A stretch of DNA of 64,000 nt from a virus. The stretch lies in the IMG/VR virus record IMGVR_UViG_3300028197_001221, positions 1-64,000 of that record; one strand, given 5' to 3'. Below are positions 3,590 through 64,000 of the stretch, piece by piece (position 1 is the stretch's first letter; each line of letters begins with the position of its first letter). A model generated the notes under the pieces. It was not told where the DNA came from. It saw only the letters and a program-made list of their open reading frames with translations, and searched no databases. The position numbers and the translations under genes were made by a program.

Positions 3590-3592
3590 CAA

Positions 3593-3874: not shown

Positions 3875-3875
3875 G

Positions 3876-4349: not shown

Positions 4350-4352
4350 AAT

Positions 4353-5015
4353 ATGTCGCCAAAAGAAATTAATGATTCATTAATAAAATTATTCTCGAAT
4401 GAGGGAATGGAAGTAAATGGATTTAAAATTAAAGCAAAGTCTCCTTTCGTAGCTAATATTGAGAATGAAGATAGCTTAACAGTTATATCCTTTGGAACCA
4501 ATCAGCTTAAAGCTGAAATCACAAAAATAATTACTGTATATGCATACATTGAGCAAATCGTTTTTGGTAAAACAGGAGGTTCTATTAAGCTAAGAAATTT
4601 TCCAGACTTTAGTTTTTCTTATAACTCTTTTGGAGATGCTTGCTGCGAGAATAAAGACAGTGCAGATTGTTTTAAAAATAACATAAGGTCACTCTGTCAA
4701 AATGTTGAAACTGAAATTTGTCACAAATACGAAGGTCAAGATACTTATAAAGAAGTTGCAAAAAAGTGTTTGCAATATGCAGAAGAATGGACTACAATAT
4801 GTCATGACTCAGGCATAAGATTTAACGGTAGTGATCACATTGATCGTTATACTCTTCGTAGTGAGTGTTACGATTTTGTAAAAGATAACATTGAAGAGGA
4901 TGTAAAAAAACGATATGGCTCCATTGTACTAACTTGGTTGTTCATGTACGTTGTGCTTCCCATGATTATAAAATGGGTTGTGAACAGAGTCTTAGAGCGT
5001 TTATTTAACGATTAA
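4353..5015 (+). CDS. Cys-rich protein with C-terminal membrane anchor
   Basis: The protein has 220 residues. The N-terminal 90 look like a beta-rich domain (KAEITKIITVYAYIEQIVFG). Residues about 92-170 carry many cysteines (CC, C, C, C, C, C), which suggests disulphides in an exported domain or metal binding. Residues about 192-209 (IVLTWLFMYVVLPMIIKW) form one membrane segment followed by a short basic tail, so it may be tail-anchored. AAGGAG lies before the ATG. No family was recognised. It ends the envelope cassette, 36 bases before the ribonucleotide reductase gene. Confidence 0.6.
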   Translation: MSPKEINDSLIKLFSNEGMEVNGFKIKAKSPFVANIENEDSLTVISFGTNQLKAEITKIITVYAYIEQIVFGKTGGSIKLRNFPDFSFSYNSFGDACCENKDSADCFKNNIRSLCQNVETEICHKYEGQDTYKEVAKKCLQYAEEWTTICHDSGIRFNGSDHIDRYTLRSECYDFVKDNIEEDVKKRYGSIVLTWLFMYVVLPMIIKWVVNRVLERLFND

Positions 5016-45290: not shown

Positions 45291-48200
45291 TTATACTTGG
45301 AAGTGACCCTTAGTATGTAAAATCATTTCATCTACGCCGGATGCTGAAGTTTCAACGTGCATATTTAATGGATCGCCAGAATTATTGATACTCTCCATTA
45401 CACTTCCTGATATAGAAAGATTAAAAATATCATCTCCAGAATTATCGGCTATTCCTAAAACGCCAAAGGTATTCAACCTTAGTTCTATATCATTATACAC
45501 ATTTCCTATACCGGAAGGTTTAATGAGATTCATACTAGAAGACGTAGAAGGAGGCTTTCCGCTTATGAATAATCTATTATATCCTGCCAAAAATGTTCCA
45601 AAGTAATAAGCTCCATGAATTTGTTCAATAAATGGCCTGTGGGACACATATCCCTTTGGATTAGAATCTTGTCCTGAAGCTTCTATAAATATTTCACCCT
45701 TTTCGTTAGCATATACTAAGCCTTCTTTATATAGGCTGTGGTTTGTTTTTGTGCCATTCTTGAAATCAAACAGAAGGTATTTTTCATGATCTTGTACGTT
45801 CATGCTTCCGAATATTCTGCCAGCTAAATTTGTGTCTGGATGAGAAAAGGAAGGAGCTTGTCTTCTAAGCATTGCGTCATAGTTGTAAACAGCTCCACCA
45901 GAAGATAGTATTTGAGACGAGATTCCAGAACCATAAGAATGAGAAGGGCTACCTACTACCAATGTATAATCTTGATCGGATCTAGCGTTTCTGTCTAGAG
46001 CAACAGATCTTCCAAAGAAATCATTTTCATTTACAGAGTTGTAACCTTGAGGTATAAGCTTCTGTATATATACCCAATCTTGTCTCTTTGATCCCCAATC
46101 CGAAATTTTATTTTCATAAGTATAAACTGCTCCCTGATTTCCTGAGCCACCAATGTCAAAATCATTTTTGTCTATTTGTGTTACATCAAATTGATCATTA
46201 AATTCTTTTCTAACAAATTCTCCAGAAGCTCCCACATCAGCTGTTTTTGTTATGCTGGCAGTTCCATCGTGAGACGGTGCTGATATAGCTATTACATCAC
46301 CATCAATATCAAAGGACATGCCGAATTGATCACCAGCATTCAATGTGTCTGGTCTAAATTTCCCAGTACATGACCAAGCCGTTTGAACTGATGAATTAAC
46401 AGATACTTGATTATAATCTCTAGTAAATTTATAGACAGATCCAGCACCACCGTCATGTCCTAACTCAGCGTTTAACATAGGTGTATTTGGAGAGTTATTT
46501 ATAACTTCATTCCAAGACGTAATGTTTTCTCCAGAAAAAGCAGCGAAAGGTGCAGAGATGTAAACTTCACCTTTATGTATCTTTACCTTGTACCCAAACA
46601 AGTCGCCGGGATACCCAGATATATGAGGTTGCATTTCATGAAAATCTAAAAAGTCATATCCAAATGTTTCCATTAAGGAGTTACGACCTTCTCCATAGCC
46701 ATTGTCTTCATATGTTACACCGTCAATATCAACCTTAAATCTACACCAAGTTCCCATAGAAACCATGTCTCCAGAGAATGCAGCTATTCTTCCAAGTCTT
46801 GCTCTTTCTATGGCAACATCATCAACTGGTGGCATTGGATTTTTATATGTCTGGTAACTTGGAGAGACAGCCTTTGCTGGTTCAAGTGGAGCAATCCAAG
46901 CTCTACTTGGAAAATCTATGGAAGCTTCATCATTACCAAACCGGCTCGGATCTTTAATAGAATTCTGAGCATAACCTCCAAAGAGATTGTTAAACCCACT
47001 ATTAATTTCAGAACTCATTAATTTAGCAGGACTAGTTTTTTCTGGAGAAACAATTTTTAACACATTTTCATATATTAAACTTCCCCCGTATTCGTCTTCG
47101 TAATAAACCTCAGATTCTTGACTCCTATAATCCGCTGGATATAGACTTCTTAAAAATTCTATAACATCTCCATTAATCCAATTATCTCTGTCAGGCAGTC
47201 TAACATTACTTCCTTGAATTAAGCTGGCATCACTAATAACTGTAATTCTAGACTTTGCAGCACCAGTTAGGAAAGGTCTCTGATGATAAATTTCTTGTGC
47301 AGCTGTAACTGGACCGTCACGAAGCTCTGGGCCGGGAGTTCCAAAACCTTCTTCGCTACTACAAAAATCAGTTGGGCAATATTTACTACTATCAGAACTA
47401 ATTTCTTGTATTAATTCTTGAGTAGTAGTAGAAGCAGGAGTCCCTTCAGAAAACAATTCTGTTCTGAAACTGGTAATTGGCCTCCGTACAGTTGTAACTT
47501 CAGTTCCTAGCTTGACTCCAGACATACCTATCAATCTTTGAGTATATGTTGATTCTGGATCATTTTTTTCATAGCCAAAATAATCACCCTGTATGTATAC
47601 GGATATACTAGAAATGCCAGACGGAACGGTAAAGTCCATATGATGCGTATATTCTATTCCTCCATAATTTTCTATAGGCCACTCACCTTCACCTAGATTT
47701 GATCCGACCTCATCCGGATTTTGCCTTCCAGCGCTTTGTCTTACTCCACTTTTGATGTCTGCAACTGTTTGCCAATAATCTCTCCCGTAAACTAATGGGT
47801 CTGATATTTCATGCAACCTATCACTGGATGTTGTTTCTATTCGTACACCAGCATTAACATTGCTAACATAAACACCAAGAACTCGCCCCTCAGAAAAACG
47901 TTCAGATGCAAAAGTTGCAAAAAATCTATAACTTTCTTCAGCCTCTACTGGGAAATCAACCCTCGCAGTACCTGTTCTCATAAAGGCAGTTCCAGTGTCA
48001 GCAGTTCTTTTATCAACAATTTTTACATTATAATATAGCAGAGTATTAACAGCGAAAATATTTTCAAAACAAACTGTCAAATATCTATCAATGTGGGAAT
48101 CGTTTACTTCACGTAGACGAGAAAGTTCTCCCCTCTTACCATCTATAAAGTCAGTATTAAACCGATTGAGACTAATATTATCTATTTTAGTGCTACCACG

Positions 48201-51200
48201 GGGTATACCCTCTAGAGGCAAGTTTGGAACTCCTGTATCTTCCAATGTTGCATACTTATGTTTACTCTCTAAAAACAAAGGTCTAATGTTTGATCCTAGC
48301 TTAGACAAAGTAGTCTGCAATTTAGATATTCTATTCATGATCTCTTGCTGGACACTGTTATTGTTCCAATCTTCATTACTGTCTCGATTTATACGTTTCC
48401 CAACAGTAATCACAATCTTTCTATTCTCTGCGCCATTAAGCCAAGTTTTTAACTGTGCCGCTTCTTGGTCACTAGGAATATTATCAGTATTTGCTATCCA
48501 TAAAACATCATATTGAGAAGCCACTTGGTTTATCTGTGACATCTGTACATTTTCAAATACTTCATAGTTTAATACCCACTGGAACGTGCTAGCAAGTCTA
48601 GACTGATCATAACCATCAATAAAAGATGTTCGTTCCGTCCAACCACCCAGTTGTGCAACTCTAGTGTTTCCATTAGATGTTTTATCTAAAAGGTTCATAT
48701 AGAAGATAACATTTGTGTCACCACCAGCAGATAGAGACTGTGAAGATTCAAGCTCAGTTGTTGTCATAACAACTATCTTGGCAGTAGTATTTAACAATTG
48801 TTCTTCCACGCAAATTGGAAATGTGTCTTGAACTTCTACATTATAGTCTTCTGTTTCTTCCAATATTTCAGCCCGTGCCATAAACAAAGCATTTTTACCA
48901 TTCTGCTCTAATATAGGATTGTCTTCATTTAAGAATAGACTATTAGATACTGTTCCAAATTCGTTATAATTTATATACGTATAGTTTCCACTATCATGTG
49001 TAATGGCAAATTCTATTTCAGTGCTGACATCATCTTCATCGTAGATAGATCCACCCACTATGGTTTCGTATCCAGATATATATGGTACTTCCCTATAGAC
49101 GGGACCAGTTGCTTCTCTATGAAACGTAAGAATTTTCTTTTCTGCTGCTGCCAAGATAGGAATAGGTTCGTAGTTTTTCCTAGGAAATTCTTGACAAGGT
49201 ATTGCAGGGTCGCAACATCCACAGTTATAAGTTTCTGGAAGATTATGAGTACCATAAGCGAAAGCAATATTAACCTTATAGCTAACTTTTTTTTGTTGAC
49301 AATTGAAACACTCTTCATTCCACTCTGCTCTTAAATCTCCCTCATGTTTAATAATATGGTTACATCTATTGTTTAACTTAAAATAACCTAGTTTCTGACC
49401 AGCATCTATTAAAGAAGTAAGTTCATCTAAACCCTGAAGTATATTGTCTACTTTAGGCTTACTACAATCATAACCCATAAAGATACTTTCATCATACAGT
49501 CTGATATCAGCAACGCCAGAACCTCGCATGTTTCCACCATACACATATGTAGAAGTAGTCTTGTCTGGTACAAAAGATGGTATAGTATTATAATACAATC
49601 CCGTATCTTGATCTACCATAGACTCATATCTATTAGCAGCTGGATATAACCTCATTCTAGAATCCAAGTTAGTCAAAAGCCTATTAATAATAGAGTTGGA
49701 ATAAGAGTATGCTCCATCTCTGTCGTATTGATCAGTTTCAAACACTGGATCATCACCCACCAGTACGAGATGTCTATCACCTAACCCCAACCAATTTTGA
49801 ATATTATCTATGTACTCTTTACTGAGTCTATCTATCTCTGGAGTAATTATAAATAATAAACCAACGTCTTGTGGGATTTCTGGATCTTCAAATCCACTTT
49901 CTATATATCGGTCACTGCCATAAGTAGATTTAAATAATTCGTCATAATATCTATCCAAGTGATTATCAGCATCTTCAATAGTATAATCTTTGTCTGTCAA
50001 CAAGTATTTGCTTTTTTCTATAGTTCTATGCAAATTACCCCACGCTCCGAATTGCATAACTTTGTCATGCTCGAAGTATTTTCTAGCCTGCAAAACTCTT
50101 ACAGATCCAGCATTAACGTTAGAGAACCATTGTTGTGGATTACTAGATTGTGATCCCGGCTTATACCATAAAATTCCTTCGTCAGTAGCGCCGATACTAT
50201 CCGTTGGAGATCCTATAGCAAGTAAGGTTCCATCCTCATTTAAGTCCACGCTATAACCTAGCCTTGGATTAGGCATGTACTTAGAAGTTAGCCAACTCCA
50301 AGAGTGACTAGGATTTATTTGAGAATCATTTATTTCTGAGGATAAGAAGTATCCTGTATACACTTCATTGTAAGCAAGTCTATAAGTGTATTGACCGCTA
50401 GGAGATAGGCTGTCATATACTTCTAAAGCAGCTTGTCTTCGATTCCCAGCATTAATGGCAGTCTGTCTTTTGAATAAGTAAGAAGTTTTAGCTCTTCTTA
50501 ATTCTAAAACATCGTTGGTTCCAATTCGTAGTATCCAATTTTCAAAATAATCGTAAAAATAATTAAAACCACCATAGCCATAAGATAATTCATAAACTCT
50601 AACTTGAGAAGACATGTATGGAGAACCTATTACTAAAGCACTACCGTCTTCGCTAATCGCTACATCATGACCAAATCTATCCACAGCAACAGAGTTGCTA
50701 GTAGTAGGGGAATCAATTCTCTGTATAGTTTTCCAACCATCATCAAATTTTTCAAATACAAACACAGCTCCACCACTAGGAGCAGCTACATTAAATCCTT
50801 CTGTTGAGGTATTGAATGTACCAAAACTACTTCCAGCAAATAATTTGTAATCTAGTGTTTCTACCAACCTGTTTATATTTAAAGTAGAGTCTAATAAACT
50901 TATGGCTTGACCAAACCAAACTTCTGTATTTGTAAAACGTTCGTCATCATCGCTACTGGTTGTATCATCCCTACCATCGTTACCGCCGATACTTGTAACA
51001 ATAGAAGGTCTAGCGGGTTGATTTAAATGATTTACCAACCCCTTATCATAAGCTTCTTGAGAAACCCAATTCATAAATCTTTCTAATCCACCATTACCTT
51101 CAAGAGCGGTGTTGCTAGTAGAACCAACAGCTCTTGTTCCGTAAGATATGGATGTATCTACAAAGAATCCAATTATAGCGGGCTGATTACTATTTTGCTT

Positions 51201-54200
51201 AGATGCATCTTGGTAATAGCGTTCATGATATATTTCCTTCAAGTCTGTAAATAATTGTTCATTTGTTGCTTCGATCTCAGAAGGAACTGAACCAGATACT
51301 CTATGAACTTGTTTTTTGAACACAAAGTCGGGATCTTCAATTCTAGCCTCTGACCAATCAGGACCAGCTGGTATATTAGTACCAAGTATTCCTTCGCATA
51401 TTATAATTTCTACATTAAAACTTACAGGAGGATCAGAGAAGTATCTAAACATAAGATCTTTTTTCTCTATAACTGGCAATAAATCATCAGGTACTGTACT
51501 TCCTCTTACTCTAGGAAACGGAGAGCAAGGAATAAATTCATCAGTAAGCACGAACAAAACTATATTAACTGGTTCAGGTATAGCGTCTGTAAATGTCCTG
51601 TCCCACTTAGCTCCCGGCGCTCCAGCAACTACGACCTCTCTACCATCATGTTTTGCTATTGAAACTGAATGTCCTAACTCTCTGCCCTTTTGACCGACAG
51701 ACCAATACCTTTTAGATCCAACTCCAAGAACTGTGTCAAACCTTGCTCCCGGCTCTCTATATTTTATTGCAATTTCTTCTTCTCTATATGAATCCACCAA
51801 ATGACCACTTGGTAAGGATAAATGTGACTCAAAGGACCAGCTAGATTGATCAGGCTGATCAGTCCAATCATTTCCGGTAGGAGCAGAATTTCTTCTGTAT
51901 ATAAAGACACTACCAGCATTAGGAACAAGAGAACCGTCATGTTCTACTAAGTCATAACTAGGAACACCAATAGCCATTAAATCATCTAATACATCTACAG
52001 AGTATCCAAACTTATCATTCAATGCTCTATCTGGATCTGGAGGAACAATTTTAATACCAGAATAATCTACTTCGTTATTAGTCCCATATCCCCATTCTGA
52101 TATTTCTCTAGGTACATCTAATACTCCATCATCTCCAGTTTTAGCAGTCATAAATAAACTGTAAGGCCCACCGGGAATAAGGTTTGTGAATTTTCTAACA
52201 CCGTAATAATTATTATCATAACCACTACTAATAGTGTTAAATGCTGTTACATTAGGGTTGCTATATACACCTTTAGGTCTAATTACCCCACCGTCTATAC
52301 ATTCTTGAGAGTACCACAGCGTATCGTGAGTAATAATGTCAGGTTCATCACAACCTTTATTGTTATCACACGATGAGTGACACATTGTGATAACGCCTCT
52401 AATTTCATCATCAGCTTCTAACGAAAGCAAATCATTATCTTCTAATACAATTTCAGTTCCAATATTCTGATCGTTCCAATCAAATGCTTGCAAATAATTG
52501 TCCCATCCAAGTTGACCAACATTTAAAGTGTGCAAAAACATCTGCCCACTAGATGTTACTATACTAGGATCATACGCATTAACATATAAATTAAATGTAG
52601 CATCATCAATTTTACCACCATACTCCGTTTCAATTCTTTCAATTTCTACATACAAATTGAAGTTTTCTTTTTTTGTTCTTTTTCTTCTTTGCGATGGGCC
52701 AACACTTCCAGTATCTGCATACCTACCGCCACCTCCAAACAAGTAAAGGTTACAGTCTTGACTAAATTCATCATGTTCATTTCCAGCAGAATCTATTCCA
52801 CGTAAGAAAAAGTTTAGTTCTGATTCTGAATAATCATAAGTAAACTTATCTGTGTTTAATAAAAATAATGTACATCCTGTATCTTTATTAAACGTAGGAG
52901 GAGGAGGTGGTGGTAGAGTGGTAGATGTGGTTGCGCTTACTGATGGATCTGGTAAACTATGTTCAATTGGGAATACTCCCTCTGGTATAGTTGGCAATGC
53001 TGTTTGTAGAATGCCACCAGTAAATGAAGATCTAGAAGCACCGAGTGTAATTCTTAAATCATCTAGGAATATAGAATAATTTGGAGACGATGGTTCGTTT
53101 GTTGAACCAAGTCCTCCCCCCGTAATCATGCTTGGAAAAATTTTGAACTCAGGATATATTGTGTCCCAACCGTTTTCACGGGCTTGTGATAACAAGTAGT
53201 CTGGTTCCACAAGGCTCTCTATATCGGGCCACCCAAAATATAGTCCTTCACCAACAATAGCTCCATCTAATATAATATATACTTTATCTTCAATAGCTGA
53301 AATTGCTACATGATGCCACTTATCATAATCAAAAACTACAGGAGCTACTATACGATGAGCGCGACATGTTTCCTCTAAATAGTCATTAGAAAAATCATCA
53401 TCTACTCTTCTGGGGGCTTCTGGAAAAGTGCTAAAATACTCGAATGTAAACGAGTGCAGATATGCTGGCAAGCCTTGTCCAAGATGATCGACAGCGTTAG
53501 GATTATTAGATGTTGTAGCATTGTAATTAATTGAAAAACTCATGCCAGTTTCTACGGTGTTATAACCAACTCCTCCCCACGCTTCATTTGCCAATATGTT
53601 GGCGCTGGAACTATGCCAACTGTGCTGTGGAACATAACCAGTACTATAGCCCTCTTGATCTCTCAATATATAAACACGCTCTCTTGCCTCTGATTTTACA
53701 TCGTCTAGGTACATTGCTGCACCCTGTACGCCAAAGGTGTTGTAACTTCTACCAAAAATAGCTGAACTAAAATAATTTTCGTGGGGTGATACATGTGGGA
53801 TTAATGATGACGGGTCTGGTACACGTAGGAAAAATTCTATAGTCCATTTAGAAGTCCAAAGTTTTGGATCTAAAGCTAGGCTCTTAAAGTTTGCTCCATA
53901 GCGTGTTTGCACATCCCCTGCCCCTCCGGTGGCGGCTTCTTGATCAAATATCCTCAGAGATCGTCTACCAAAATGACGATACAAATCACTAGTTGGTAAG
54001 TTCTTTAAATAAGTTAATCCAAAAGCTTTTTCAAACCCTCCTCTAGTCATGTTGCTACCACTATTATTTTTACCACTCATATCTCTTGTTGAAGCATTAG
54101 CGTTTTCAAAATCAAGTAGCAAATTTACATAACCGCCAAGGTCATCTGTCTCTACATTAGAAGAGCCAAACAAAACAGGATCGTTATTAAATATAGCGTT

Positions 54201-57200
54201 ATCTTCTTGTGGAGGCTCACTAAAGAACCCTCCATTGTTAGAACTAGAATTACCAAACCAAGACATGATTCCAATAGTGTGTAAATTAAATTGTTCTGGA
54301 GGTTCTACTTTAATTCCAGTGACTGAATGAAAATACAAACCAAGGTGTGGATCTGGTGCATCATAATCGTGGAAATCAGTTGAGTAAGAAGCTGAAGTAT
54401 AAAGTGGTAGCCCGAAATAACCTACTCCACTTGAATCTATTTTAGTCCACGGAAGACCAGTAGTATATAGAGAAAGACCACTAGAAGGAGTATCAATTAT
54501 CCCTTTCTCAAACACAGAAAGATTCATCTGTCCGAAAGATATAGCCTCGCTAGTGACATGAAGGTTAAAGTCGTCTGCATAAGCAACGTCTTTTAAATGG
54601 AGAGCGTTTTCTAATCTTACATGAGATGAGTGAATTCTAATTGTAGAGTCGTAAGATCCAGAAGGATATGCTAAGTCATATTGAACAAACATATCATTCA
54701 TATCTTTAGAAGATAAATAGTGACCTCTTTGTTTTAAAATTTGTTGTCTATCAAAATTAGCCCAAGGCTCTGTCTCAGTATCTCTATAGCTATCTATAGT
54801 GAACTCACTAATTATTTTTTGCCAACAATCTCTTGGTCCAATATAATGTATGTCCCTATTAAGAAGACCCCAATTCTGACTATCAAACAAATCTGTTTCT
54901 TTTGTCTTGGTGTACAGACTAACAATAAGTCTTGGTCCCACTTTTCCATCGGGCCATGTAATGTCATTAGTTGTTTCATGTTCAATAACCGTGTCTACCG
55001 CAATGGCATCTTTTGCAAAATTGTATCCATCTGGCAAAGCTTTAGAAATTCTTGGAGCTATTGACAACATCTTTTCTGAAGTGTCTGAGAGATGCATTCT
55101 GAACATATCATTTTCAAGCTGAGTATGATATGCTAGTCCAGACGTAACGATATCATTTGGAAGAGCAAGCTGAGTATTATCCTCGTAGCTGCCACCATCA
55201 GTCTTAAAATTGTGAACAATATAATCGTTTCCTATTTTGTTTGTGAGTGTATCGTAGGCTGGTCCAAATTCACAATATTTAAACGCGCCTATGTGCCACT
55301 TGTTAGAATCTTCATCTACAAAATCCCATAACTTGTATCTATCATTTTTATATGATTCGCCATCATTCCAGAACTTAGATCTAAAAGAATCAAAAAATCT
55401 TTCAGCAGTGGTTTGTTGCTTAGACGCATCTGCAACATCTCCATTTACTAATATAGATCCGTAAGCAATATCCTCAGACACACCTACGTCTGTAACGAAT
55501 GCGTTCATACCAATGCCAGATCCGTATGAATGACCAAGTATTAAATCGCTATCCCCACTAGCCATTATAAATGGTTGTGAAGAACTTCTAAGTATATCAA
55601 AGCTTCCACTGTTTATAATTTCATTGTCTGTATATAACCTTAAACGATTAGAATTATTATCATTATAAGTAAGCAATACAGGTACTGGGTATTGATAGTC
55701 TGTATAAGTTAGCGTATCCTTAACTTCTATATTATTGCCATTAATATCTCTAGCGTAACCAACAATATGACCATCTTTATAACCAATTGCTAACTCTAAA
55801 TCTTTCCCAGAATCCCACTTAGATAAAATAACACCATTATTAAACAAGTTATAATCAGCGCCGCTAACGTCAACGTCTGGGGAAAATCTTGTGAATAAAG
55901 AAAAACCGCCAGAGCATTCTATGTTACCAAAATTAACATTAGCATTAGACTGTTTAACTCTTAGGGCGTTTTCAAAAGAGTCAGTTATCTTTCCGTGTAA
56001 TTCGTGACCAGAAGATGTCCAATCAATAGTAGTATACGTTCTTTCTTGAGAAGAAAACAGGTGGTCTGTTCTGAATCTAAAACCTACACTATTAATAATA
56101 TTACTAGAAAGTAGAGCATTAAATATTCCACTACTTGTTGTAGAACTATCATCAGGATATATAGTACTATCTTCTGTGTTTCTAAAGGTATAGTAACCAT
56201 TAATAAAAGGTTTTTCTAACTGCGGATTATAAAAGCTTTCATCAAAAGCGGGAGGATCAAACGGTCCTGATCTAGACACGCCATCTACACCTCTCCACCT
56301 CTTAGAATAATTAGTTTTGATTGTGTCGGGTGTTTTAAATCCATGAGGTATATTCTCAATTAAAGATAAAGGCTTTGAACCTACAACGGCGTTTAACTTA
56401 TGATCATACTCTCCCATAGCGGCTGCAAATAATCCATTAGACCTTCTAGAGATTTCTATACCTCCATGTCCAAAAGTGTGTAACTGCATAGCTGCGGAAG
56501 GTCTATACTTTATTATCAGTTCTGCTTTTGCTATAACAGCGCCAACAGGAAGGGGATAAATATCAAGGTGTAAAGCCTCGAAGAATGGAGATATATTATA
56601 TGTATCTGGAGTTCCTAGCTCATTAAGCTTAGGACTAATTTGCAAAGGAACAATGTATTGATTGTACTCTGTGCTATCTACCATAGAAGGTGTTCTAACT
56701 TCATCTCCATTTTCGTCTTCACCAATTTTGAGTACTGAAGCTGTAATTAAATGATGATCACCTCCGGGGTTGTTAGCAACTGGTCTGTTTTCAAAATATT
56801 CATCTCTGGAAGAGATAGCTTCAGAAGATCTAGTAAGATAATTTGAATTATCAAACCCAGAAGAAATTGGTATAGTACCAGCACCAGCAGTAGAATTTTG
56901 TAAGAAGCCATCAACAGGAGATGTAACGTTGAAAAGACCATCATCACAATATCCCACAACGTCTAAAGTAAAATCTCTTATAGAAGTAGAAGATTTTTTA
57001 GCTAAGACTTTTAACTCTATAGATTCTATTGTGTAGAATTCTTGTTCTACTTTTTCAACAGTAGATTTAGCGAGATCTAAATTACTATCTAATCTAAACT
57101 TTCCAATGCTAAATGCGCCACCTGTTTTTTGTACAACTCTTGTGGGTGGTTGATGAGAATATACAATCTGTAACTTACCAGAATCTGCAATTGGAGATGT

Positions 57201-58913
57201 TGAAACAAGTTCCACGGACCTAAAGCTAACAAAGTCATTAAGCGATTTACTAAGTTGTTCTAAATCTTCTTTTACATTGTTATAATAAACTTTGCCATTA
57301 TGAGCTGAAGATTTCCAAACACTATTGACTTCTGGAAGTATGCCATTGCTAAATCCGTTAGGAAGAATTTTAGAAGGATACAATTTTCTTTCAAGAGATA
57401 AGCCTTCTTTAATAGACTCAGCATGTAAATTAAAGTAATTTTCTGAGAGACGACCATTAATGGAACCGCTTGCTACAATCTCTATGTTTGAAATTCTAAT
57501 AGAAGCGTTGGGCGTAAATTCAAACCCTTGACTCTGAGCAGATATTGGAGCGCCGTCAAGAGCTAAGTAATCATTATTGCCTCCAATCAACTCGTTAATT
57601 TCACATTGATTTTCATATGCCTTTTTGTCAAACTCTGCACTAAATGGATCATGATGACAAGTAGCTTGAAAATCCATATTCAAAGTATATCCACTATTTT
57701 CTTCAAATATAGGACATAGTTCATCCCAGTTATGCCTGTTGGCATTGTTATATTCTGGCTCTGTTACATATGTTGCAAAATTATATTTTTCGTTTTCTTG
57801 ATCAAAATCTCCATCGCCTGTCAATGTGATGTCTTTGTATTTTGCAATTAAATTACCAGAGGGATCTTCCCATCTAATGTTATGTATTTTAAATTCTGGA
57901 GCATCTTCTGATTCAAAAACCGCCATAGGAGCTGACGCTCTAATGAACAAGAAGTTTTCTATGGGTTTAATTGCTGGCGGTGTTAATTCACACTTATATG
58001 TAAAGTCTCCATCAGAGTAAATAGACGATGGTTGAATAAAAGTATTTTGTTCGTCGTTTATCCTAATACTTGTTTTATTATTTTTAGTATAATTACCTGT
58101 AAATAATCCCTCATCAACACTCTTGTATAGACCACTAGGAGACAAATTTTTATCAACAAAGCCAACATTATTTTTTAACGTCACTATGTCTCGTATAGGA
58201 TAGAATTTTTGAGTAGCTTTAAAGTTTTCTAACTTATTAATCTGATCAGTATGTCCACCTATTTTATCTGTGTATGTATTATTTAATTTAGTTTTTATCT
58301 TTATATTTGCAAACAAAGATATTGGCACAGGCATACAATAATTTTCTGTACATAATTTCCAGAATCTTATACCGCCATTTTTAGTTCTTACTGTGGACTT
58401 GCTGCTTTCTACAATACCATCTGTTTCTACAGCGCCAAAGTTAGCAACAACGGTTGGCTGTGAAGCTATGTATCCTTGACCTTCCCAAGATGTGAATGCA
58501 GGCACAGCAGTGCTATTACTAAGATTCGAGCCGCCAAGACCTGCTAAGAAACCACCAATTATGCTGCTGCCAATAATTCTTGAAGTTGTAGCTTCTGTAT
58601 CATTTATACTAAGCTTACCTTTGGATTTAAAACTAATACCATTTACAGCGTTGACAGGCTCTAAATGTGAAGATCCAAAATTATTGTTTGACTGTTGGTT
58701 ATTAACAGAATTGGAAAACCCAACATTAACAAGAACAGACATCAAAGATCTTATCTTTGATTTAGATTTTAAGTCAGACTTATGCCTGAACTCAAGGGTG
58801 GCATTGGAAGCGGTCGCTTCTTTAGTGTTTCTAACGTGACCTATGTTTAACCCAACTTGCAGTTTGCTAGAACCTCTGCTAACACTTCGCTGAGTACTTA
58901 CGAAACATTCCAT
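45291..58913 (-). CDS. giant virion protein with LamG-like domains and FG-GAP-like repeats (4540 residues)
   Basis: A single uninterrupted frame of 13.6 kb. Two concanavalin/LamG-like domains stand at about residues 1000-1110 (SLFTRFSPDVD, VILSKWDSGKDLELAIGYKD) and 1680-2000 (KWTIEFFLRV, YDKWHHVAISAIEDKVYIIL). Seven FG-GAP-like repeats occur near 2300 (FGYSVDVLDDLMAIGVPSYD), 2411, 2748 (FGHDVAISEDGSALVIGSP), 2885, 4105, 4195 (FGMSFDIDGDVIAISAPSHD) and 4300. A Cys-rich stretch (ECFNCQQKK, YNCGCCDP) and Rossmann-like segments lie between the two clusters. LHT/LHV beta-motifs recur, also at the end. The location next to the tape measure gene suggests a tail spike, long fibre or baseplate adhesin; function is inferred. 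Confidence 0.75.
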   Translation of the reverse strand: MECFVSTQRSVSRGSSKLQVGLNIGHVRNTKEATASNATLEFRHKSDLKSKSKIRSLMSVLVNVGFSNSVNNQQSNNNFGSSHLEPVNAVNGISFKSKGKLSINDTEATTSRIIGSSIIGGFLAGLGGSNLSNSTAVPAFTSWEGQGYIASQPTVVANFGAVETDGIVESSKSTVRTKNGGIRFWKLCTENYCMPVPISLFANIKIKTKLNNTYTDKIGGHTDQINKLENFKATQKFYPIRDIVTLKNNVGFVDKNLSPSGLYKSVDEGLFTGNYTKNNKTSIRINDEQNTFIQPSSIYSDGDFTYKCELTPPAIKPIENFLFIRASAPMAVFESEDAPEFKIHNIRWEDPSGNLIAKYKDITLTGDGDFDQENEKYNFATYVTEPEYNNANRHNWDELCPIFEENSGYTLNMDFQATCHHDPFSAEFDKKAYENQCEINELIGGNNDYLALDGAPISAQSQGFEFTPNASIRISNIEIVASGSINGRLSENYFNLHAESIKEGLSLERKLYPSKILPNGFSNGILPEVNSVWKSSAHNGKVYYNNVKEDLEQLSKSLNDFVSFRSVELVSTSPIADSGKLQIVYSHQPPTRVVQKTGGAFSIGKFRLDSNLDLAKSTVEKVEQEFYTIESIELKVLAKKSSTSIRDFTLDVVGYCDDGLFNVTSPVDGFLQNSTAGAGTIPISSGFDNSNYLTRSSEAISSRDEYFENRPVANNPGGDHHLITASVLKIGEDENGDEVRTPSMVDSTEYNQYIVPLQISPKLNELGTPDTYNISPFFEALHLDIYPLPVGAVIAKAELIIKYRPSAAMQLHTFGHGGIEISRRSNGLFAAAMGEYDHKLNAVVGSKPLSLIENIPHGFKTPDTIKTNYSKRWRGVDGVSRSGPFDPPAFDESFYNPQLEKPFINGYYTFRNTEDSTIYPDDSSTTSSGIFNALLSSNIINSVGFRFRTDHLFSSQERTYTTIDWTSSGHELHGKITDSFENALRVKQSNANVNFGNIECSGGFSLFTRFSPDVDVSGADYNLFNNGVILSKWDSGKDLELAIGYKDGHIVGYARDINGNNIEVKDTLTYTDYQYPVPVLLTYNDNNSNRLRLYTDNEIINSGSFDILRSSSQPFIMASGDSDLILGHSYGSGIGMNAFVTDVGVSEDIAYGSILVNGDVADASKQQTTAERFFDSFRSKFWNDGESYKNDRYKLWDFVDEDSNKWHIGAFKYCEFGPAYDTLTNKIGNDYIVHNFKTDGGSYEDNTQLALPNDIVTSGLAYHTQLENDMFRMHLSDTSEKMLSIAPRISKALPDGYNFAKDAIAVDTVIEHETTNDITWPDGKVGPRLIVSLYTKTKETDLFDSQNWGLLNRDIHYIGPRDCWQKIISEFTIDSYRDTETEPWANFDRQQILKQRGHYLSSKDMNDMFVQYDLAYPSGSYDSTIRIHSSHVRLENALHLKDVAYADDFNLHVTSEAISFGQMNLSVFEKGIIDTPSSGLSLYTTGLPWTKIDSSGVGYFGLPLYTSASYSTDFHDYDAPDPHLGLYFHSVTGIKVEPPEQFNLHTIGIMSWFGNSSSNNGGFFSEPPQEDNAIFNNDPVLFGSSNVETDDLGGYVNLLLDFENANASTRDMSGKNNSGSNMTRGGFEKAFGLTYLKNLPTSDLYRHFGRRSLRIFDQEAATGGAGDVQTRYGANFKSLALDPKLWTSKWTIEFFLRVPDPSSLIPHVSPHENYFSSAIFGRSYNTFGVQGAAMYLDDVKSEARERVYILRDQEGYSTGYVPQHSWHSSSANILANEAWGGVGYNTVETGMSFSINYNATTSNNPNAVDHLGQGLPAYLHSFTFEYFSTFPEAPRRVDDDFSNDYLEETCRAHRIVAPVVFDYDKWHHVAISAIEDKVYIILDGAIVGEGLYFGWPDIESLVEPDYLLSQARENGWDTIYPEFKIFPSMITGGGLGSTNEPSSPNYSIFLDDLRITLGASRSSFTGGILQTALPTIPEGVFPIEHSLPDPSVSATTSTTLPPPPPPTFNKDTGCTLFLLNTDKFTYDYSESELNFFLRGIDSAGNEHDEFSQDCNLYLFGGGGRYADTGSVGPSQRRKRTKKENFNLYVEIERIETEYGGKIDDATFNLYVNAYDPSIVTSSGQMFLHTLNVGQLGWDNYLQAFDWNDQNIGTEIVLEDNDLLSLEADDEIRGVITMCHSSCDNNKGCDEPDIITHDTLWYSQECIDGGVIRPKGVYSNPNVTAFNTISSGYDNNYYGVRKFTNLIPGGPYSLFMTAKTGDDGVLDVPREISEWGYGTNNEVDYSGIKIVPPDPDRALNDKFGYSVDVLDDLMAIGVPSYDLVEHDGSLVPNAGSVFIYRRNSAPTGNDWTDQPDQSSWSFESHLSLPSGHLVDSYREEEIAIKYREPGARFDTVLGVGSKRYWSVGQKGRELGHSVSIAKHDGREVVVAGAPGAKWDRTFTDAIPEPVNIVLFVLTDEFIPCSPFPRVRGSTVPDDLLPVIEKKDLMFRYFSDPPVSFNVEIIICEGILGTNIPAGPDWSEARIEDPDFVFKKQVHRVSGSVPSEIEATNEQLFTDLKEIYHERYYQDASKQNSNQPAIIGFFVDTSISYGTRAVGSTSNTALEGNGGLERFMNWVSQEAYDKGLVNHLNQPARPSIVTSIGGNDGRDDTTSSDDDERFTNTEVWFGQAISLLDSTLNINRLVETLDYKLFAGSSFGTFNTSTEGFNVAAPSGGAVFVFEKFDDGWKTIQRIDSPTTSNSVAVDRFGHDVAISEDGSALVIGSPYMSSQVRVYELSYGYGGFNYFYDYFENWILRIGTNDVLELRRAKTSYLFKRQTAINAGNRRQAALEVYDSLSPSGQYTYRLAYNEVYTGYFLSSEINDSQINPSHSWSWLTSKYMPNPRLGYSVDLNEDGTLLAIGSPTDSIGATDEGILWYKPGSQSSNPQQWFSNVNAGSVRVLQARKYFEHDKVMQFGAWGNLHRTIEKSKYLLTDKDYTIEDADNHLDRYYDELFKSTYGSDRYIESGFEDPEIPQDVGLLFIITPEIDRLSKEYIDNIQNWLGLGDRHLVLVGDDPVFETDQYDRDGAYSYSNSIINRLLTNLDSRMRLYPAANRYESMVDQDTGLYYNTIPSFVPDKTTSTYVYGGNMRGSGVADIRLYDESIFMGYDCSKPKVDNILQGLDELTSLIDAGQKLGYFKLNNRCNHIIKHEGDLRAEWNEECFNCQQKKVSYKVNIAFAYGTHNLPETYNCGCCDPAIPCQEFPRKNYEPIPILAAAEKKILTFHREATGPVYREVPYISGYETIVGGSIYDEDDVSTEIEFAITHDSGNYTYINYNEFGTVSNSLFLNEDNPILEQNGKNALFMARAEILEETEDYNVEVQDTFPICVEEQLLNTTAKIVVMTTTELESSQSLSAGGDTNVIFYMNLLDKTSNGNTRVAQLGGWTERTSFIDGYDQSRLASTFQWVLNYEVFENVQMSQINQVASQYDVLWIANTDNIPSDQEAAQLKTWLNGAENRKIVITVGKRINRDSNEDWNNNSVQQEIMNRISKLQTTLSKLGSNIRPLFLESKHKYATLEDTGVPNLPLEGIPRGSTKIDNISLNRFNTDFIDGKRGELSRLREVNDSHIDRYLTVCFENIFAVNTLLYYNVKIVDKRTADTGTAFMRTGTARVDFPVEAEESYRFFATFASERFSEGRVLGVYVSNVNAGVRIETTSSDRLHEISDPLVYGRDYWQTVADIKSGVRQSAGRQNPDEVGSNLGEGEWPIENYGGIEYTHHMDFTVPSGISSISVYIQGDYFGYEKNDPESTYTQRLIGMSGVKLGTEVTTVRRPITSFRTELFSEGTPASTTTQELIQEISSDSSKYCPTDFCSSEEGFGTPGPELRDGPVTAAQEIYHQRPFLTGAAKSRITVISDASLIQGSNVRLPDRDNWINGDVIEFLRSLYPADYRSQESEVYYEDEYGGSLIYENVLKIVSPEKTSPAKLMSSEINSGFNNLFGGYAQNSIKDPSRFGNDEASIDFPSRAWIAPLEPAKAVSPSYQTYKNPMPPVDDVAIERARLGRIAAFSGDMVSMGTWCRFKVDIDGVTYEDNGYGEGRNSLMETFGYDFLDFHEMQPHISGYPGDLFGYKVKIHKGEVYISAPFAAFSGENITSWNEVINNSPNTPMLNAELGHDGGAGSVYKFTRDYNQVSVNSSVQTAWSCTGKFRPDTLNAGDQFGMSFDIDGDVIAISAPSHDGTASITKTADVGASGEFVRKEFNDQFDVTQIDKNDFDIGGSGNQGAVYTYENKISDWGSKRQDWVYIQKLIPQGYNSVNENDFFGRSVALDRNARSDQDYTLVVGSPSHSYGSGISSQILSSGGAVYNYDAMLRRQAPSFSHPDTNLAGRIFGSMNVQDHEKYLLFDFKNGTKTNHSLYKEGLVYANEKGEIFIEASGQDSNPKGYVSHRPFIEQIHGAYYFGTFLAGYNRLFISGKPPSTSSSMNLIKPSGIGNVYNDIELRLNTFGVLGIADNSGDDIFNLSISGSVMESINNSGDPLNMHVETSASGVDEMILHTKGHFQV

Positions 58914-58918
58914 ATTTA

Positions 58919-61900
58919 TTATCCCATCTTACTATCAGTTTGTCTTGGACTTCCATCAGGATTACGAGATGTCTTGCTTAATTCTTCGACAACCTTCTGT
59001 TTGACGACATTTCCCATAAGGTTTTCTAAACGAGCTAGTATGCCACCGTCATTTATATTTACACTTACATTGGTATTATCTAAAGTAATTTTTATTGAAG
59101 TATTTTCTAGTCTATCTATATTGGCAGATAAATCAGTGTTAAACTTGCTAAGAGCAGAACTAAACCTTTCCATAACTTCTGGGTCTAATCCAGCTCCAGA
59201 AGCTACACCAGCTTGAGCTTCTGCTGCTCGTTGAGTTGGAGCAGCTACAGATGTACTAGTTGATGGACTTTTAGATTGTTGTTCTTTAACTTCTTTGGTT
59301 TCTTTAGCAACTTCCTTAGTAGCTTCAGCAGCTTGTTTTTGAGACTCAGCTTGGCTTTCTGTTGCACTGGTAGCTTCTGGCGTAGACGCTGCTTGATCTT
59401 TCTCGGCCTGTCTGATTGCTAATTGTTCTTTAACGCCCTTGTCAAAGTCACTTGATTCACCACTACCATAGAAGTAGCTCTCTCTATTTCTTTTGTCTTG
59501 TCTACCCTTAATGTCTGTATCAATCATTTGCTGTTCTTGCTCTTTAACATCTTTCATGCTAGCATCTTTGCCATAAGTATTGGTAAAGTCTTCTTCTGAC
59601 ATGCCAGTGCTACTTAAGAATTTAGAACGATCTCCTCCAGCTGCATTCGCCTCATTCCTTCTGAAAAGCATATTAGCTCTTTGGTTAGCTGCTGACTTGT
59701 CTAATGCTCCTAACTTCTCAAAACTTTCTATACTACTAGAATCACCACCAACACCGACAGCCCGTTTAAACGCTGTGTGATCCATAGCCATCCCAACTCC
59801 TTCTTCCATTTCAGCAGTTTTCATAGAAGATGAAATTGCACCTGCCACATCCTTAAAACCACCAACTATATTATAGAAACCTTCTACAATTTTTCCTACA
59901 GGATTTAAGAATCCTTCTAGACCACCAAGAACTGTGGCAAGAGCAGCATCAAACTGAGTGCCAGTTTTTAAGAATCCTACTCCCCAACTGTCCATCATAC
60001 CGCCAAAGTCTCTTCCGGTCTTTTCCTTTTTATCTTCATGGTAAGCTTTAGGATCAGATATAAAGGAAAACCCTTCCATAATTCCATCAAGAGCAGTTCC
60101 AAGTCCCGGTATACCCTTGGCTCCACTAGAAGCCATCTTTCCAAGCATCGGAAGTTTTGACAGACTCTTCATAATTGATGGACCAATCTTATCTAATCCG
60201 GGGATCTTCATCTTACTAAGATTACCCATTTTTGATCCCACGAATTCTGTTCCTTCTTGGAGCATTTTCTTTCCAGTTTGTAGCATACCCGGAGCGTTCT
60301 TTTGCATATACTGTGATGAAGCATTCATCATTTGCGGGGCAGTATTTTGGAAGAAATTTTTACCCGCGCCAATGGCATTGCGACCCTTTTGCAGTACGGT
60401 AGGATCTAGTTTATTTTTTGCGATTTGACTCAAGCCGCTCTTCAACCCGCCACCCATATTGCCTGCCATATTTCTTGCACCACCTAAGAAATTAGATCCT
60501 CTCTGATAAAGATTAGAACCAAATTGAGCTGCTCTTTGTCCGAATTGACTTTGACCAACTTTTCTCATAGTTTGACCAGCAAAATTACTGGCTCTATTCA
60601 CAACCCCCGGTTTTCCACTACGAGACATACCTTCAAGACCATAGCCATGTTTACCAACTCCAAATGAAGTCGCCATGTCACCAAAGAAACTACCAGCTTT
60701 ATTCTTGCCAGCATTCAATAAATTTTGACCCCTTTTCATCATGCTAGGAGCAAAGTCATCTCCGTAAGAAGCTTGATTTAATCTTTCAAACATTCCTCCA
60801 GCTTTCTGCATAATACCAGCTGGTCTAGGAACATTGTCCACACCTCCCATAACACTTCTAGTTAAAGATCTACCAGCAGTAAAGTTTTTGCCTATTCCTG
60901 TTTGACCAATTCTTGAGCCAACTCTAGAAAGTATCTCTCCACCTTCTGTTCCTATCCTTGAAGCAAGGTTTCCAGCACCTCCACTTTGCACAAAGTTTTT
61001 GCCCATACCAATAGCATTCTTAGCCATGTTGCCAGCGTTTGCTACAGCGCCACCGCCCATGCCAAATATACCCTTGATTGCACCCATAATGCCACCACCG
61101 CCTCCATCGCCTCCACCGCCTCCACCGCCTGCACCACCCGCACCGTCTTTAGCACCTGTACTAGCTGCGTCACCACTTTCAGAAACTTTATCAGTATTAA
61201 TATTAGCAACTTTAGTATTAACTTCAGCAGTATTTTTAGCTTCTTCTCCTGACTTTATAGCTTCCTTAGTACGTAGTACCGCAGCGTCAAATTGCATTTG
61301 AGCTGCATCTTCTTGTTTCTGAGCTATCTCAAGGTCTCTTGCCGCAGCATCAACCATAGCCTTGCCTAATTCTGGTAGTACTCCCGCCAAGTCTCTAATC
61401 TCAGATTCTTTAGCAGCTTCTTCATTTGTTGATCCCGCAGCAATCTTAGCTAGATCAGGAGCATCGACTCCCATAGCTCCAAAAGATGCACCAAAGGATC
61501 TTTCAGTTAAGCCATCGGGACCGCTAAGTTTTTGACCATACAAACTATCTACGCCAGATTCTTGAAGCCTTCTGTTTTCTTGAGCTGCCATGCCTAAAGC
61601 TTGAGGGCCGAACTGGTTCATTAAGCTCTTATCACCAGTAGCAATAGCGGCTTGAGCGCCAGCAGTACCCATCTTATCAAAGAACGCTTCATCATCTCCA
61701 GCAATCAAAGCGTCAGCAGCGGCCTTTTCGTTAGCATTCTTCTCTTTAATAATTGAAAGTTCTTGTTTTCTAATATCAATAGCGGCTTTAATACTGTTGT
61801 ATTCTTCTTTTAGGGCCGAATCTATTCTGCCCAGCTCGTCACTCATCTCTACGCCAGATTTACCCCGTGCCTGTTCATTGCTCTTACCTTCAGCAAGATC

Positions 61901-64000
61901 AGTTCTAACGCTAGAAATTTCTGCCCTACGATTAGATAGTTGATCAATTCTACTCTTGAAGTCACCCGCCCCAATACCACTTTGAGAGCCGACACCCTTA
62001 ATGCCTTCAACTCCCACATTAGATCTCTTTAACAATTGTTGTTGTTGAACTTCTGGTGTAAATGACGCACCACCAAACTCAGATTGTATTTTTAAAGCTT
62101 CTGTTTCTAAATCAATAGATCTTTGTTTTGTTTCAATTAATTTCTTCTCTAAATCAAGTCTTGCTTTAGTAAAGGTTAGTAATTTCTTTTGTGCTTCAGC
62201 CTGAGCCTTAAGTGCTGGCAACACTTGTTTCATAGCATTGTCGCCCACCTTTTGGATAACTTCTTCAAAAGCAGAGAAGTCGCCTTCAGACACACGTTTC
62301 ATTTGGCCGTCACTTATATCGCTACCTTCAATTTGTTTCTTCAGACGTTCTACAGATTTCTCGTCAACCCCTTGCTTTGTAAGTTCATCACCTGTCGCTT
62401 TTGCAAATGCCGATCTACGCTCGCCCATCGTTCCAGCGGCTTGTCTTCCTGACTTAAACGCTTCCTTCATAGATTTTTTAGTAGCCTCAAATATAGCAGG
62501 CATATTTGCTTGTGCAGCATTTACAGCTGTTAAATTTCCTCTAAATTTATCTATCTGTTCACTATTAGCTCCTAAGTTTTCAAGAGTTTTACTGGCATTG
62601 TCTAGAGAAGAATTGAATTGATCTGGTGATATACCTTGAGCAGCAGAAGTAATACTAGCTTCTAGTGTTGGAATAGTACTATCTAAAGTATTACTACCAA
62701 GCTCTTGGCTTCTGGTATAATTGTCAATAGCAAGAACACCAGCATTAGCAGCAGCTGTAGCAGATTGCATCGCAAGGTTCATAGCAGCAAATGATTCTCG
62801 TACTCTGTCTGCTTCTTTTTTAAGATTTGCAAAAGCTTCTTCTTGTATAGAGGGTAGGGCTTTACCGTCTTCATCTTCTCTCGCTTCAAACTGTCCTTGA
62901 CGCTCCATAGTCTCTCGTGTATCTTTAGACAAGCTATTTTTATACTGCTCAAAAGAACCATTAGTATTAGCAGTTTGCCTCATCACGTTGTCAGCAAGAG
63001 GCTGTGCGCTTCTAAGGAAATCTTTGTCCACCTTGTCTTGATCTGCTTTAATTGCTTCCTGATCTTTTGACAGTCTTTCGTTTCTTTGCCCGCCGGACTC
63101 CATACCCATCATACCAGCAACGCCAAATGTAGCAACGCGAGCAAAGCCTCTTCCAAATCCACTTGCAGGTCCAGACTTATCATTCTCTTCTATACTTTTT
63201 ACTCTGGCTGAAGACCTATCTGCACTTGCTTGCACTGTTGCTGCGTCTGGGTCAAGTCTTTTCAGTGCATCTATAGCTGAAAGATTACCCTCTTTAAATT
63301 GTCGCATAGCTGCGGTAGCTTCTTTATTTGCATTAGTCAAAGCTTCTTGTGTTTTTACAGCCTGCGCCCTAGCTCCAGCTTCTAGTTTAATCGTAGTAAT
63401 ACTCTTACCACCCATCCAGTAACCTAGACTCATAGCGGTGGTTTTAATCATAGGTCCAAGAATAGGAAGCTCACTTCCCAATTTAATTGCAGCTGCCGTT
63501 AACCCAGCGAATATAGGGCCAATGCCGGGAATGAATGAGCCTATAGCAGCAAAACCAATAGCTAGCTTATTAACAGCAGAAGCACCTTCTTTTTCAAAGG
63601 CTATAGATTCTGCCGCAGCAGCATTACCGTCTTTAATTGCGTTGTCAAGCTTTGTAGCCCTATCAGTTAAACTGTCTATAACAGCAGTCAAGGCAAAAAT
63701 TGAACCAGTAGCTACAATAGCAGGACCAGCCATGCTAGCAACAGCTCTAGTTGCAACAACTACACCCTCTGCATTTGCTGCGCCCAGACCAGCTTTTGTA
63801 CCAACAGCGCGAGCAGCAGTTCCAGCGCGATTAACAAGTTTACCACCACCGCCAAGAAACTTACCCATATCTTTAAGATTTAATCCCTTAAACATATCAG
63901 CAATAATATTGCCCTTCATCTGGGTTTGCATCAAGGAGAATGTGCCTGATAGTGCTAGAGATACGTTTGCTAATTGAGAGAAAGAGCTAATCATGTTAGC
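58919..64000 (-). CDS. tape measure protein (5' end beyond window)
   Basis: At least 1693 residues are present; the frame is still open at the window edge and the first Met at 63994 lacks a ribosome binding site, so the true start probably lies further right. The sequence is long, Ala/Gly/Lys-rich and helical, with hydrophobic stretches (AGPAIVATGSIFALTAVIDS, IGFAAIGSFIPGIGPIFAGL), coiled-coil regions (TKARLDLEKKLIETKQRS) and a Gly-rich hinge (GAGGAGGGGGGGDGGGGG). This is the build of tail tape measure proteins, which set tail length and span the tail tube. It is the first gene in this window's leftward tail block. Confidence 0.85.
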   Translation of the reverse strand, partial: ANMISSFSQLANVSLALSGTFSLMQTQMKGNIIADMFKGLNLKDMGKFLGGGGKLVNRAGTAARAVGTKAGLGAANAEGVVVATRAVASMAGPAIVATGSIFALTAVIDSLTDRATKLDNAIKDGNAAAAESIAFEKEGASAVNKLAIGFAAIGSFIPGIGPIFAGLTAAAIKLGSELPILGPMIKTTAMSLGYWMGGKSITTIKLEAGARAQAVKTQEALTNANKEATAAMRQFKEGNLSAIDALKRLDPDAATVQASADRSSARVKSIEENDKSGPASGFGRGFARVATFGVAGMMGMESGGQRNERLSKDQEAIKADQDKVDKDFLRSAQPLADNVMRQTANTNGSFEQYKNSLSKDTRETMERQGQFEAREDEDGKALPSIQEEAFANLKKEADRVRESFAAMNLAMQSATAAANAGVLAIDNYTRSQELGSNTLDSTIPTLEASITSAAQGISPDQFNSSLDNASKTLENLGANSEQIDKFRGNLTAVNAAQANMPAIFEATKKSMKEAFKSGRQAAGTMGERRSAFAKATGDELTKQGVDEKSVERLKKQIEGSDISDGQMKRVSEGDFSAFEEVIQKVGDNAMKQVLPALKAQAEAQKKLLTFTKARLDLEKKLIETKQRSIDLETEALKIQSEFGGASFTPEVQQQQLLKRSNVGVEGIKGVGSQSGIGAGDFKSRIDQLSNRRAEISSVRTDLAEGKSNEQARGKSGVEMSDELGRIDSALKEEYNSIKAAIDIRKQELSIIKEKNANEKAAADALIAGDDEAFFDKMGTAGAQAAIATGDKSLMNQFGPQALGMAAQENRRLQESGVDSLYGQKLSGPDGLTERSFGASFGAMGVDAPDLAKIAAGSTNEEAAKESEIRDLAGVLPELGKAMVDAAARDLEIAQKQEDAAQMQFDAAVLRTKEAIKSGEEAKNTAEVNTKVANINTDKVSESGDAASTGAKDGAGGAGGGGGGGDGGGGGIMGAIKGIFGMGGGAVANAGNMAKNAIGMGKNFVQSGGAGNLASRIGTEGGEILSRVGSRIGQTGIGKNFTAGRSLTRSVMGGVDNVPRPAGIMQKAGGMFERLNQASYGDDFAPSMMKRGQNLLNAGKNKAGSFFGDMATSFGVGKHGYGLEGMSRSGKPGVVNRASNFAGQTMRKVGQSQFGQRAAQFGSNLYQRGSNFLGGARNMAGNMGGGLKSGLSQIAKNKLDPTVLQKGRNAIGAGKNFFQNTAPQMMNASSQYMQKNAPGMLQTGKKMLQEGTEFVGSKMGNLSKMKIPGLDKIGPSIMKSLSKLPMLGKMASSGAKGIPGLGTALDGIMEGFSFISDPKAYHEDKKEKTGRDFGGMMDSWGVGFLKTGTQFDAALATVLGGLEGFLNPVGKIVEGFYNIVGGFKDVAGAISSSMKTAEMEEGVGMAMDHTAFKRAVGVGGDSSSIESFEKLGALDKSAANQRANMLFRRNEANAAGGDRSKFLSSTGMSEEDFTNTYGKDASMKDVKEQEQQMIDTDIKGRQDKRNRESYFYGSGESSDFDKGVKEQLAIRQAEKDQAASTPEATSATESQAESQKQAAEATKEVAKETKEVKEQQSKSPSTSTSVAAPTQRAAEAQAGVASGAGLDPEVMERFSSALSKFNTDLSANIDRLENTSIKITLDNTNVSVNINDGGILARLENLMGNVVKQKVVEELSKTSRNPDGSPRQTDSKMG

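Follow-up and report, generated by a model that had tools for sequence, protein, structure and literature searches.

A candidate seven-bladed FG-GAP propeller, split within a blade by about 1,000 residues, in a giant tail protein of uncultured tailed phages

Integrin-type propellers have already been described in bacteria, where, according to Chouhan et al. 2011 (PMC3192720), seven sequential FG-GAP repeats are arranged by a Cage motif in which each repeat has a G-X13-20-P spacing followed by a P-X2-15-G spacing. FG-GAP proteins also occur in viruses. The giant protein gp108 of Sinorhizobium phage Phosso (PV764938.1, 3692 aa, recorded as 'hypothetical protein'; locus L291 in our set) has both FG-GAP_2 and Laminin_G matches, with 27 FG-GAP_2 stretches and laminin G domains at its C-terminus. 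In a search of the open-access literature we found no report of an FG-GAP propeller in a phage tail or of one that is split inside a blade.

Here we describe a protein of 4540 residues encoded in the window, by which we mean the whole 64,000-nucleotide stretch of DNA analysed (bases 1-64000 of a virus record of 125,941 bases). It is best explained as a large component of the tail tip of an uncultured tailed phage, and we put at roughly 60% the probability that it contains a single seven-bladed FG-GAP propeller that would close into a ring, with inserts that would be exposed on a tail-tip hub and serve in host recognition. The likeness to the integrin alpha propeller, including those of the alpha-I chains alphaM, alphaX and alphaE, lies in the seven FG-GAP repeats, the layout of the strands and the best structural match of both halves. 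The window protein differs from integrin alpha in that about 1,000 residues split blade 4, the DxDxDG loops are mostly absent, and the gene belongs to a phage tail cluster. It shares with the bacterial propellers the seven sequential repeats and the G-X13-20-P spacing, whereas those, as described in PMC3192720, are more regular and compact and carry one calcium site per repeat, against the long loops, few calcium motifs and split ring found here. Compared with Phosso gp108, its repeats stand as four plus three around a long insert. If the reading is true, a propeller ring would close across a 1,000-residue insert inside a blade, and a diverse family of phages would share this arrangement, an independent example, outside animals, of adhesion on an integrin-like plan. 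It would also offer a concrete host-recognition candidate for phages that are widespread and uncultured and to which none of the 50,697 named phage records is closely related. The features are as follows, in the order of the encoded residues.

58919..63994, minus strand: tape measure gene, the part listed in the window (it continues past the window end); PHROG tape measure families match the N-terminus of a close relative's copy
45291..58913, minus strand: open reading frame of the giant tail protein, ATG start, 4540 aa, directly after the tape measure gene
52890..54233, minus strand: LamG-like segment, residues 1561-2008 (Laminin_G_3, E 0.016)
51891..52010, minus strand: FG-GAP repeat 1, residues 2302-2341, strands 1-3 of blade 1 (motif and model strands; G 61/63, P 63/63)
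51615..51677, minus strand: first part of FG-GAP repeat 2, residues 2413-2433, strands 1-2 of blade 2 (motif and model; G 63/63, P 60/63)
50778..51605, minus strand: insert A, residues 2437-2712, predicted alpha/beta domain in the loop that joins strands 2 and 3 of blade 2 (model secondary structure)
51144..51158, minus strand: [DE]x[ST]xS motif, residues 2586-2590, where the fourth strand of insert A ends (D 50/E 13, S 47/T 16, S 62/63)
50706..50774, minus strand: strands 3-4 of blade 2, residues 2714-2736, after insert A (model; strand-4 motif)
50586..50675, minus strand: FG-GAP repeat 3, residues 2747-2776, strands 1-3 of blade 3 (motif and model; F 59, G 61 and P 63 of 63)
50307..50585, minus strand: insert C, residues 2777-2869, predicted to be largely helical, in the loop that joins strands 3 and 4 of blade 3 (model)
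50271..50306, minus strand: putative strand 4 of blade 3, residues 2870-2881 (motif, a training site of the profile; no strand in the model DSSP)
50088..50261, minus strand: FG-GAP repeat 4, residues 2885-2942, strands 1-3 of blade 4 (motif and model; G 63/63, P 63/63)
47079..50072, minus strand: insert B, residues 2948-3945, which separates strands 3 and 4 of blade 4 by about 1,000 residues (conservation, models and strand-4 profile)
49479..50066, minus strand: insert B1, residues 2950-3145, GIFT/DUF4350-like alpha/beta domain (DUF4350 in relatives; kinship with B3)
48174..48803, minus strand: insert B3, residues 3371-3580, a further GIFT-like domain with kinship to B1 (profile; weak fold match)
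47499..48056, minus strand: insert B4, residues 3620-3805, CBM4/malectin-like beta-sandwich (model strands; weak fold match)
47043..47078, minus strand: candidate fourth strand of blade 4, residues 3946-3957, on the far side of insert B (top score outside the training sites among 1,691 positions; many alignments of model 2 start at 3951-3952)
46614..47042, minus strand: insert D, residues 3958-4100, leading from the fourth strand of blade 4 to blade 5 (119-174 residues from strand-4 anchor to FG glycine)
46404..46598, minus strand: FG-GAP repeat 5, residues 4106-4170, strands 1-3 of blade 5 (motif and model; F, G and P 63/63)
46098..46325, minus strand: FG-GAP repeat 6, residues 4197-4272, strands 1-3 of blade 6 (motif and model; G 63/63, P 62/63)
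45873..46016, minus strand: FG-GAP repeat 7, residues 4300-4347, strands 1-3 of blade 7 (motif and model; G 61/63, P 38/63)

In a Pfam scan of the protein, FG-GAP_2 was the one credible family (E 3.1e-16; 59.7 bits, the cut-off being 23), and four stretches passed by themselves. A motif pattern drawn up once the sequence had been read found seven sites, at residues 2302, 2413, 2747, 2885, 4106, 4197 and 4300; 2,000 shuffles of the protein gave a mean of 0.04 sites and a maximum of 1. Pattern and Pfam family together bear out the count of exactly seven repeats given in the initial annotation, four of them at 2302-2903 and three at 4106-4323, as well as the separation that it had claimed for the two groups, 1,221 residues lying between the glycines of repeats 4 and 5. 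A further FG-like site, at 2667, was rejected as an eighth blade, F being present there in 4 of 63 sequences and G falling outside the five commonest letters.

This arrangement is constant in a family set of 63 sequences, which comprises the window protein and the 62 relatives left once near copies had been removed. None of the 63 has lost a repeat, and each of them has the four-plus-three grouping and the long insert. For every repeat, 61-63 of the 63 sequences have the FG glycine, and 60-63 of them have the GAP proline in repeats 1-6, against 38 in repeat 7. Repeats 4 and 5 are 1,067 to 1,330 residues apart in the family, and the insert is never absent. Comparison of the homologues for co-variation of insert and propeller, which had been proposed as a check, found both in every complete relative and no separate gain or loss of either. 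The glycine-proline spacing X13-20 of the Cage motif is present in 7/7 repeats of the window protein and, among family members in which both letters are aligned, in 61/61, 44/60 (range 16-27), 61/61, 63/63, 63/63, 62/62 and 36/36 for repeats 1 to 7, respectively, the rows that lack one of the two letters numbering 2, 3, 2, 0, 0, 1 and 27 of 63. The proline-glycine spacing X2-15 is not kept in each repeat: blade 2 has 240-294 residues at this place, owing to insert A, and long loops between proline and glycine are also seen in other blades of the window protein. The DxDxDG calcium loop that would be expected in blades 5-7 (4-7 in some integrins) is likewise no feature of the family, the pattern occurring in 20/63 sequences in repeat 4, 5/63 in repeat 6, 1/63 in repeat 3 and 0/63 in the others. 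Since the calcium loops typical of integrins are mostly missing, the stability of the propeller must come from elsewhere.

Two AlphaFold2 models were built from 63-row alignments, the halves being predicted apart, so that no model spans all seven blades. In model 1 (residues 2262-3370; pLDDT 75.1, pTM 0.56) the four repeats form blades, of which blade 2 is broken between strands 2 and 3 and blade 4 has three clear strands; in model 2 (3362-4540; pLDDT 64.9, pTM 0.42) three blades form. The best PDB match of model 1 is integrin alphaM (7usm_A; Z 19.1, 3.6 A over 223) and that of model 2 is integrin alpha5 (3vi3_C; Z 12.3, 2.9 A over 162). Ranks 1-21 of the Foldseek search with model 2 are all integrin alpha, and the TM-scores of the Foldseek matches are low, 0.04-0.28 in the integrin rows listed. 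At E values up to 1, a sequence profile of the first half retrieved nothing but integrin alpha chains (15/15, best 0.0047), and a profile of the second half retrieved no integrin. Structure prediction in fragments, advanced earlier as a way of examining the propeller, is favourable to it: both modelled halves form blades, and each matches integrin alpha propellers first in the PDB.

The place of the long insert depends on the fourth strand of blade 4. A 12-position strand-4 profile, derived from blades 1, 2, 3, 5 and 6 with blade 4 left out of the training, was scanned over 1,691 positions and ranked its five training sites first, followed by residues 3946-3957, with a score of 7.9 against 2.9 for the next separate site; this site had been chosen by eye beforehand from the same similarity, which makes the scan a consistency test rather than a blind one. 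The five known strands, when left out of the training, scored 0.2-4.3 (ranks 7-12), and the motif lent no support to an N-terminal closing strand for blade 7, expected near 2280-2291 (rank 97 of 1,691). Of the structural alignments of model 2, many begin at 3943-3952 and then jump about 155 residues to the FG motif, which we read as a lone strand at that place; others begin earlier, near 3867-3870. With its fourth strand after the insert, blade 4 would hold about 1,000 residues within itself, and the two halves would need each other. Two elements of the initial annotation have to be revised on these grounds. The large insert, which it had placed between blades four and five, appears instead to split blade 4 between strands 3 and 4; and where it had assumed one inserted domain, the big insert contains at least three and two further inserts are found in blades 2 and 3.

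Segments B1 and B3 of insert B are probably of one kind. For the stretch 2955-3600, a DUF4350 profile matched 23/32 members at an E value of 0.1 or below (2e-6 at best), each value referring to the stretch as a whole. The window's own 2955-3600 stretch gave no DUF4350 match, and its membership in DUF4350/GIFT is therefore by kinship. B1 and B3 are related to each other by hhalign (probability 95.9, E 5e-9), which did not link either of them to GATase, and the model containing B3 matched IFT52 in Foldseek (5fmr_C, E 0.13). Insert B would thus have two related domains of the type known from the IFT52 N-terminus, recognised by profile and a weak fold match, and here placed inside a blade of a viral tail protein. 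For the model containing B4, Foldseek returned CBM4 and ANX rows at weak E values of 0.08-0.2, which would fall on the predicted beta-sandwich. The stretch 3521-3800 is the least conserved segment listed, with a mean top-residue share of 0.30.

Insert A, which is present between its flanking motifs in 63/63 sequences, raises the question of whether the resemblance to integrins extends to the alpha-I domain. As in alpha-I integrins, an alpha/beta domain stands at blade 2, and it would lie on the same face as the FG loops, as judged from the loop description in PMC3192720; the vWA domain of integrins, however, lies between blades 2 and 3, whereas insert A is inside blade 2, in the strand 2-3 loop. 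It is possible, albeit doubtful, that insert A is a true vWA/alpha-I domain and that the integrin alpha-I plan was reached by convergence or descent, which would add to our preferred reading rather than displace it. The predicted order of strands and helices is compatible with a vWA-type fold, the acidic, DxSxS-like [DE]x[ST]xS motif is kept, and the top three Foldseek matches of the whole of model 1 are all alpha-I-bearing integrins. Long matches, however, are also given by propellers with alpha/beta hydrolase domains (Foldseek ranks 6 and 11), and viral FG-GAP proteins that are shorter than their alignments bridge the insert too, for which reason we dropped a long Foldseek alignment as a sign that an alpha-I domain was being aligned. 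Furthermore, the DxSxS of a MIDAS stands after the first strand, which in insert A ends in TDEF, whereas the motif found follows the fourth; the order of elements does not demand a circularly permuted vWA, and this variant was discarded. Pfam recognised no family in insert A, with a VWA match in 0/63 members at E 0.1, and comparison by hhalign with vWA, response regulator and GATase profiles gave probabilities of 0.5, 0.2 and 0.1%, in a test of limited sensitivity that also missed the link of B1 and B3 to GATase and in which at least one of the 30 vWA rows, from bacterial loci, was a short stub. The accessory vWA gene that appears in PMC7911831 is not relevant here. We regard as rather unlikely the fuller version in which a closed FG-GAP propeller would follow the integrin alpha-I plan, with a metal-binding, MIDAS-like domain at blade 2 and a variable binding head from blade 4; if it were true, binding would depend on divalent cations and the ring would be stitched across 1,000 residues.

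The LamG-like domains of the initial annotation survive in reduced form. A Laminin_G_3 match exists at E 0.016, at 15.7 bits against a curated cut-off of 27.6, and it recurs in 1/62 non-redundant relatives, namely the one 88% identical to the window protein; being sub-threshold and present in a single relative, the segment is not part of the conserved design and is, judged by sequence, a lineage-specific addition of this close lineage. Short stretches of the type SGxxLxLxxxG seem by eye to recur around the propeller, at about 1449-1545, 2015-2130 and 4460-4540, and the C-terminal part of the family profile weakly matches upstream stretches in relatives.

Rates of change were obtained for one pair, the window protein and this 88%-identical relative, as estimates without error bars that include some short segments. 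In this comparison, the N-terminal 1,486 residues have a dN/dS of 0.06-0.10; blades 5-7 stand at 0.14, blades 1-4 at 0.28-0.45 and insert A at 0.34, and the fastest segments are 3521-3805 (0.68), insert C (2778-2870; 0.62) and the LamG-like segment (0.54). Fast change in a carbohydrate-module-like sandwich, a helical insert and a LamG-like segment suggests host binding, and the adhesion to a host glycan or protein that had been proposed earlier would be helped by these values. Under our preferred reading, the conserved N-terminal half would dock on the tail tip and the propeller, from about residue 2283 to 4350, would act as a rigid hub, from which insert A would project at the 2-3 loop of blade 2, the helical insert at blade 3 and some 1,000 residues at the 3-4 loop of blade 4; the variable domains on the hub would face the host, so that recognition could change while the hub stayed fixed. 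A less probable account would make the propeller a structural hub or spacer that has no direct part in receptor binding and would assign this task to the products of the downstream genes (511, 1373 and 704 residues). The strong constraint on the N-terminal half and blades 5-7 (dN/dS 0.06-0.14) agrees with such a role, and the downstream tail genes, for which searches gave no credible family or PDB match, are unassigned; against it, the segments that evolve fastest, inserts B4 and C and the LamG-like part, belong to this very protein, as does the least conserved segment listed.

That the single propeller of the initial annotation is built from distant parts is upheld by the seven repeats in all 63 sequences, by the integrin-like prediction for both halves and by the candidate fourth strand of blade 4 beyond the insert, while closure of the ring stays a matter of probability: the two halves probably join into a single ring. 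Trimers and hexamers are common among tail-tip proteins, and an arrangement in which the blade groups close between neighbouring subunits of an oligomeric tip by strand or domain swapping, or stay two partial folds, would suit halves that each fold by themselves when predicted apart, but we consider it improbable in view of the fixed four-plus-three number, which is the blade number of integrins, and of the need of blade 4 for strands from both sides of the insert, two points that are equally compatible with closure in one chain and between chains.

Relatives were collected in IMG/VR scans that yielded 49 loci and then 80 of 91 loci, many of them revisits to one contig, together with one contig of a bacterial MAG. 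The search patterns were drawn from blades 5-7 and from the stretch between repeat 4 and insert B1, and relatives that lack those parts would for this reason be under-found. Of 131 ORFs with a match, 116 contain the whole region, and the other 15 consist of 11 at a locus edge and four from one frame-broken contig. The closest relative is 88% identical over the full length and 0.86 over the propeller region; for the others, identity to the window over the region is 0.28-0.43. Phosso gave the sole match among the 50,697 named phage records, at 30.6% identity over 16% of one query from the window protein, and no clear relative was found there. The terminase of the lineage matched at least 600 stretches in IMG/VR, and its identity to named phages is at most about 26% among the matches listed; being common in the former and distant from the latter, it indicates a lineage that is common in IMG/VR and uncultured. 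One SAR202 MAG holds two different contigs with such giant proteins (L139 and L295, open frames of 4058 and 4414 residues), either a candidate host link or a case of mis-binning; as such proteins occur in 1/301 genomes of its phylum, we claim no host.

The description of the product as a virion protein draws its support from gene context, namely the adjoining tape measure gene, rather than from proteomics. A tape measure homologue is found immediately upstream of the gene in nearly all loci where this position is visible (65 ORFs are similar), the exceptions listed being L156, with an overlap above the limit set, and L188, with broken frames. The N-terminal half of the protein gave no credible family or PDB match. 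The gene is divided in 7/62 relatives, where a separate ORF, starting 67-317 residues before the aligned region, encodes the propeller together with all its inserts. On contig 3300050343_000214 (L116, L188) the tape measure and propeller genes are both split into several frames, perhaps by sequence errors. The starts of two ORFs of another locus (L008, 16808-17851 and 17848-18513) resemble, as we take it, GDP-mannose dehydratase and sulfotransferase, which would presumably suit sugar modification. In the window, a 9-base tandem repeat of 13 copies is located at 37239-37355, within the tail-region ORF of 704 residues.
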